NCBI RefSeq assembly: GCF_032884065.1
Contig: NC_088867.1
Location: 806,001 to 870,000, forward strand
Direction of reading: 5' to 3'
DNA from: Artemia franciscana
Taxonomy: Eukaryota > Arthropoda > Branchiopoda > Anostraca > Artemiidae
DNA: 64,000 bases
Each line of letters starts with the position of its first letter. Position 1 is the first letter of the stretch. The notes under the pieces are model-generated. The model was given only the letters and a program-made list of their open reading frames with translations, did not search any database and was not told where the DNA came from. Position numbers and translations under genes: made by a program. Positions 17,005 to 62,041 of the stretch are shown here, in pieces.

Positions 17005-17172
17005 TCACTTTCGGTCTGAACTATTTTGAGAAAACAAAAATGATTTTTTAGCAGATTGTTTTGCTGCACCTATTCTGTTGAAAATCTCCCTGTCTCTTAT
17101 AGGCTGTATTTCGCGGTCATTGTATCTCAATTGGTTTCCGTCTGGGTCCTGTATTTTGCCAAATTTCTCGAG
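17005..17172 (-). CDS. Exon 8: alpha-CA C-terminus and stop
   Basis: A long pyrimidine run and TTTAG acceptor precede 55 codons and TGA at 17007-17005. [18 protein letters not shown] and then REIQPI match the terminal alpha-CA block (L/M-x-x-F-R-x-L ... N-x-R-P-x-Q-P-L), with the usual RP changed to RE. A basic tail follows ([20 protein letters not shown]). It carries an NSS sequon and no hydrophobic C-terminal segment, so neither a GPI signal nor a membrane anchor is seen. The phase 0 join after GAQ sits where vertebrate CA genes split after SEQ, as I recall. I see no clear AATAAA in the roughly 150 bases downstream. Confidence 0.88.
   Translation of the reverse strand, partial: LEKFGKIQDPDGNQLRYNDREIQPIRDREIFNRIGAAKQSAKKSFLFSQNSSDRK

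Positions 17173-62041: not shown

Follow-up and report, generated by a model that had tools for sequence, protein, structure and literature searches.

The Artemia franciscana gene described here is a real brine-shrimp gene and belongs to a small family in which an EGF-like module sits directly on an alpha-carbonic anhydrase (CA) domain. It lies within a 64,000-nucleotide stretch of DNA, referred to as the window, which corresponds to bases 806001-870000 of contig C5 (60,874,063 bases) in a 1.27-Gb assembly. Eight minus-strand exons (E1–E8), running from the ATG at 62041 to the final base of the TGA at 17005 and all joined in phase, encode a secreted protein of 463 residues. The exon model was built from the span given in a preliminary description of the window, together with splice sites and phases, ahead of any database search, and the joined protein was found to be 100% identical over 463 amino acids to an Artemia franciscana protein in the public databases, P0001, which is named "carbonic anhydrase 12-like". 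The gene is already in the databases, under a name that omits its N-terminal half. The fusion is accepted on the basis of this identity, a paralog with the same exons and phases, and five sets of N-terminal exons located before CA exons. Together with the in-phase model, these observations confirm the secreted EGF-like/alpha-CA fusion gene predicted at 17005-62041, and they supersede the weak argument first offered for it, that the three additional phase matches would arise by chance about once in 27 times.

Each of the eight exons and seven junctions is present, as expected from the earlier proposal of five CA exons joined in phase to three upstream minus-strand exons. Exon E1 (61812..62041, 230 nt) contains the ATG, a signal peptide at approximately residues 1–19, a Thr-rich stretch, and the cysteine pair C44/C54, and ends in phase 2. 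Exon E2 (53419..53645, 227 nt) encodes an orphan region with cysteines C138 and C150, leads from phase 2 to phase 1, and has the top score among 18 listed splice candidates of that phase combination. Exon E3 (47017..47145, 129 nt) encodes the EGF-like module with its six cysteines, the last being C194, and has symmetric 1-1 phases. The CA domain starts in E4 (34691..34816, 126 nt) at G-K-Q-QSPVDI, with no GPxxW segment, and continues through E5 (32367..32541, 175 nt), E6 (25280..25385, 106 nt), and the GSLTT exon E7 (22196..22426, 231 nt) to E8 (17005..17172, 168 nt), which holds the last part of the domain and the stop codon, without a C-terminal hydrophobic tail; all eight are on the minus strand. 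The intron after E4 is of the GC-AG type (AATCAG followed by gcaagt; window 34689-34690, minus strand); the corresponding donor of the tandem paralog is GT.

The catalytic domain is recognized by Pfam PF00194 with 235.5 bits, against a cut-off of 27, over positions 12–252 of the 254 in the profile. The zinc ligands H276 and H278 (QFHFHW, in E5) and H302 (EVHFVH, in E6) are intact, and the gatekeepers E289 (GSEH, in E5; equivalent to E106) and T385 (in E7; equivalent to T199) are kept. In the predicted model, residues 201–440 have pLDDT values mostly above 90, with dips to 70–79 at residues 241–260 and to ∼72 in the loop 381–390, which includes F389, and the CA fold is matched to CA II by Foldseek with an E value of 3.7e-26 and a TMt of 0.82. 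The N terminus and the EGF-like module have values mostly below 50, such that fold prediction of the joined protein, suggested previously as a check, upheld the CA part and not the region in front of it. The protein has a single hydrophobic stretch, at its N terminus, and the product is therefore probably soluble and secreted. Judged from its sequence, it is probably an active secreted alpha-CA that is kept at an extracellular site by the N-terminal modules.

The six cysteines of E3 (residues 155, 160, 170, 180, 182, and 194) have the order and spacing of an EGF-like domain (C-x4-C-x9-C-x9-C-x-C-x11-C), a domain type with 1-3, 2-4, and 5-6 disulfides, and the exon includes the motifs GSYSC.C and NGISC. 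The window copy matches Pfam EGF with an E value of 0.28, below the cut-off, and the best values among the paralogs are 6e-4 for EGF_3 (20.4 of 28.5 bits) and 0.005 for EGF (17.6 of 21.5 bits). The EGF assignment made in the preliminary description is retained on cysteine pattern and motifs, with the curated Pfam cut-off reached in none of these copies. A profile search of the PDB with three EGF sequences gave 24 weak matches, none of which is named as an EGF protein.

A tandem paralog lies 55 kb from the window gene (C5:957187-923334) and repeats all eight exons, with order, strand, and phases unchanged. Comparison of the two genes gave Ka/Ks values of 0.26 for the mature part of E1–E3 and 0.29 for E4–E8, with bootstrap intervals for pN/pS of 0.23–0.46 and 0.31–0.51, respectively. 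By this measure the N-terminal exons are conserved to a similar degree as the enzyme part; constraint on single exons is weakest in E1 (0.41) and E7 (0.44), and the signal peptide gave 0.70, its interval being very wide. In isoform X2 of this paralog (P0002, a public record), E7 (phase 0-0; L005, C5:928890-929114) is skipped and the GSLTT loop is missing; such a product, if expressed, would be expected to be inactive.

The genome was searched with the N-terminal part of a third paralog, P0003, the counts being lower bounds. At least 24 matches were obtained at E values up to 1, and at least 15 at E < 0.001, all on C5 and divided equally among E1-like, E2-like, and EGF-like exons (five of each); among the matches listed, these exons form five sets. 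The first set is the window gene (minus strand) and the second the tandem paralog (C5:923-957 kb, same strand as the window gene); the third is at C5:12.55-12.575 Mb on the minus strand, and the fourth and fifth are on the plus strand from C5:12.76 Mb and C5:12.84 Mb onward. Each set is followed, on the same strand, by a CA exon beginning at the QSP region; the first CA exons of four sets were found in the family search, with profile starts at 13–15, and that of the window by tblastn, and at the three 12-Mb loci only part of the later CA exons was found or read. Within this second CA cluster, L044 (C5:12824836) and L047 (C5:12587717) encode an identical GSLTT exon translation, the two being oppositely oriented and separated by 237 kb, and the pair would represent a recent inverted duplication or an assembly duplicate.

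QYM36_012935, a record in a different naming style, also joins E2, the EGF-like exon, and the first CA exons; the length of its contig suggests that it derives from the same assembly as the other records. P0001–P0003 and P0053 are all located on a contig of 60,874,063 bases and probably come from one assembly. An N-terminal profile built from three sequences matched four Artemia proteins only, in 5.8 billion. This profile performed better than P0003 alone, an insensitive query that matched just P0003 and not P0001, although it may still miss relatives in other branchiopods.

Nine canonical first catalytic exons were read in the same genome (L071 repeats L059). All nine include GPxxW, in the commonest form 12 residues ahead of QSP (L052 has ESP for QSP), and all except L058 have a cysteine five or six residues ahead of QSP/ESP. 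This GPxxW...C stretch is absent from the CA part of the window gene and from E4 at the remaining four loci. In seven of eight canonical exons, L052 being the exception, the first codon is for glycine and its first base is separated from the other two by a phase-1 intron; the ninth, which matches L059, also appears to begin after a phase-1 intron. A glycine codon is divided in the same way at the start of the CA exon at all five EGF-type loci, where, however, the sequence is G-[KQN]-[QE]-QSP. The simplest reading would be that a symmetric 1-1 EGF exon came into the phase-1 intron, with loss of the GPxxW...C stretch.

The sixth EGF cysteine, C194, is encoded by E3 and is located five residues ahead of QSP, at the position of CA Cys23. 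The CA part of the window protein includes no cysteine, and C194 may pair within the EGF-like module. The position of Cys203 is occupied by phenylalanine in all five GSLTT exons read on C5 (F389 in the window gene); one of these C5 exons, at 12587817, belongs to none of the five sets and may come from an incomplete gene, and the GSLTT exon of the C5 12.55-Mb locus was looked for and not found. Outside C5, eight of the nine GSLTT-region exons read have the cysteine, including L068, which has GSTTHPGC at this place and resembles a CA-related protein; the exception, L070, falls close to the copy in which Cys23 is missing as well. In a survey of 53 proteins, 73 CA domains were recognized in 51 (all except P0005 and P0052). 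Both cysteines were found in 62 domains, neither in 4, and Cys203 only in 2, with no GSLTT match in 3; the two domains with Cys23 only come from the EGF-type proteins P0001 and P0003. Lys occupies the His64 position at all five fused loci; among the nine canonical exons read, eight have His64 and L058 has Tyr. CA III, a slow enzyme, also has Lys at position 64.

We consider it likely that this is a mosaic Artemia gene, with the secreted E1, orphan E2, and EGF-like E3 placed before an N-terminally shortened CA of extracellular type, and with a product that is a secreted, CO2-hydrating enzyme held extracellularly by these modules. The join is at the place where the canonical Artemia CA genes have their phase-1 intron. 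The soluble secreted enzyme would hydrate CO2, with its N-terminal modules holding it at an extracellular site; the sixth EGF cysteine would take over from CA Cys23, the module would cover the face formerly covered by the lost N-terminal segment, and Lys at the His64 position would slow proton transfer relative to CA II. A more specific proposal, for which we see even chances, is that the EGF-like module serves as a structural substitute rather than as an addition: with its sixth cysteine in register at position 23 and Cys203 and His64 lost across the fused lineage, it would cap the barrel and form with it a rigid two-domain unit, so far found in Artemia only. As the N terminus and the EGF-like module are mostly of low pLDDT, the cap and disulfide ideas are without support from the predicted model.

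The fusion could be real and the CA domain nevertheless be a binding module, like the CA-related proteins, and not an efficient enzyme. The loss of the N-terminal segment, the substitution of Lys for His64 at five of five loci, and the paralog isoform without E7 are consistent with this. However, all zinc ligands and both the Glu and Thr gatekeepers are kept, whereas CA-related proteins have lost zinc ligands, and we regard a purely binding role as unlikely. It is also very unlikely, in our estimation, that two genes are present, with E1–E3 forming a separate secreted gene, the CA having a first exon of its own, and the fusion arising from faulty gene prediction. In favor of this reading, the public models are possibly predicted ones, gain or skipping of a phase 1-1 EGF exon leaves the frame intact, intron 3 (E3–E4) is 12 kb long, and the E1-type module also starts other Artemia genes. 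Against this, the tandem copy has the same exon set and phases, five such sets are found beside five shortened CA exons, and a shortened CA exon would be without an obvious start. Among the matches at E < 0.001, the N-terminal exon sets occur only before CA exons, and not, as the preliminary description had allowed, as part of another gene. A separate signal-peptide exon for the CA in intron 3, the other outcome it had named, was not encountered: a non-exhaustive hunt on the minus strand for the canonical N-terminal motif W-x-Y...W gave two places, 13606 and 698, both outside the gene, and of the 1-to-1 candidates scored for splicing within intron 3, also surveyed non-exhaustively, none had a CA motif.

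E2 has no match in Pfam. E1 is akin to the exon that begins other secreted genes of Artemia, and from its sequence the gene looks assembled from three sources. A genome search with one E1 relative gave 16 matches, corresponding to 11 places outside C5 (on C6, C10, C11, C14, C15, and C5667) and the five EGF-CA loci, of which two were at E values of ∼1e-5 to 5e-5 and three at 0.01–0.03. A Thr-rich secreted N-terminal module, PTC[YF]...C.RKKRQ, recurs at these 11 places in the Artemia genome, and the seven that were read (L061–L067) all have the cysteine pair ending C.RKKRQ.

The E1 core (window 61916-61805, protein residues 42–77) has a short likeness to matrix Gla protein (MGP) in the PDB, strongest in P0003, for which a search at E values up to 10 gave one match, MGP 9nub_A (E = 6.6e-4). 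Profiles of E1 gave E values of 0.0071 and 0.046 against MGP, and the N-terminal profile otherwise matched only a flagellin-hook repeat in the PDB (E = 0.0045, four weak repeats). In 5000 shuffles each, the scores of loci 5, 3, 1, 2, and 4 against the MGP piece were reached by 0, 0, 2, 9, and 44, and against an osteocalcin peptide by 12, 18, 44, 156, and 2243, respectively, the loci being relatives and hence not independent tests. That E1 is a distant relative of MGP/osteocalcin and directs the enzyme to mineral is extremely improbable: the match is the best of several queries tried and weakens at other loci (44 of 5000 shuffles at locus 4), the cysteine spacing is C-x9-C in E1 against C-x5-C in the MGP segment compared, E1 has one conserved glutamate, adjoining the first cysteine, where MGP and osteocalcin have several Gla glutamates, E1 has no match in Pfam, and all seven further Artemia relatives read have C.RKKRQ without an MGP-like pattern. 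Once these nearer relatives had been read, homology was rejected and the likeness is probably convergence.

The fused gene resembles the extracellular alpha-CAs of the CA VI, IX, and XII type in zinc site, gatekeepers, PF00194 match, and predicted fold. Those enzymes have a W-x-Y...GPxxW start and a Cys23-Cys203 pair, whereas in the fused gene the segment and Cys203 are gone and the CA is preceded by an EGF-like module. The GPxxW segment is usual in this subtype but does not define the fold. Canonical Artemia CA genes (C3, C6, C7, C12, and C581) end their first catalytic exon at the same place (NNGHTG / NTGK.G) but, unlike the fused genes, keep GPxxW and mostly Cys23, Cys203, and His64. According to the available portions of the sources, zebrafish CA VI-pentraxin is likewise a secreted alpha-CA with a second extracellular domain, but its pentraxin is C-terminal and its CA retains the N terminus and disulfide (PMC5723433); nacrein and other shell CAs are likewise secreted multi-part invertebrate enzymes, with low-complexity additions and no mention of EGF in those portions (PMC4023409, PMC8933548, PMC5379566). 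The portions available of PMC5723433, PMC9159632, PMC8933548, PMC4023409, and PMC5379566 describe no EGF-CA protein.

The statement in the preliminary description that no standard alpha-CA with an N-terminal EGF module was known agrees with these results: no alpha-CA immediately preceded by an EGF-like module was found, either in protein searches, which covered relatives sharing short exact words, or in the open-access literature searched. The gene encodes an annotated alpha-CA with a domain order met nowhere else in these searches. It provides a naturally occurring example in which fusion of domains goes together with the coordinated loss of a conserved cysteine, and for which canonical copies in the same genome serve as a control, and it suggests that an alpha-CA may be able to fold without its N-terminal segment. 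The gene is further relevant to how CO2 and bicarbonate are handled extracellularly by an animal living in saline, carbonate-rich water. The missing CA N-terminal segment, the cysteine replacement with loss of Cys203 and His64, and the gene family are additions to the preliminary description.

Elsewhere in the window, a tRNA scan and an Rfam search at the gathering threshold gave nothing. Downstream of the gene, a minus-strand frame at 10800-11144 matches the Pfam reverse transcriptase RVT_1 (E = 9.6e-11) and represents a retroelement fragment. Apart from the eight exons, repeat DNA in the introns at ∼18000-25000 and 48500-60000 recurs, in both orientations, within introns of the tandem copy. 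Tandem repeats with two copies each, of 302 and 178 bases, are located at 55896-56487 and 20047-20399, respectively, and long TA/AT runs at 17242, 26882, 29932, and 46871.
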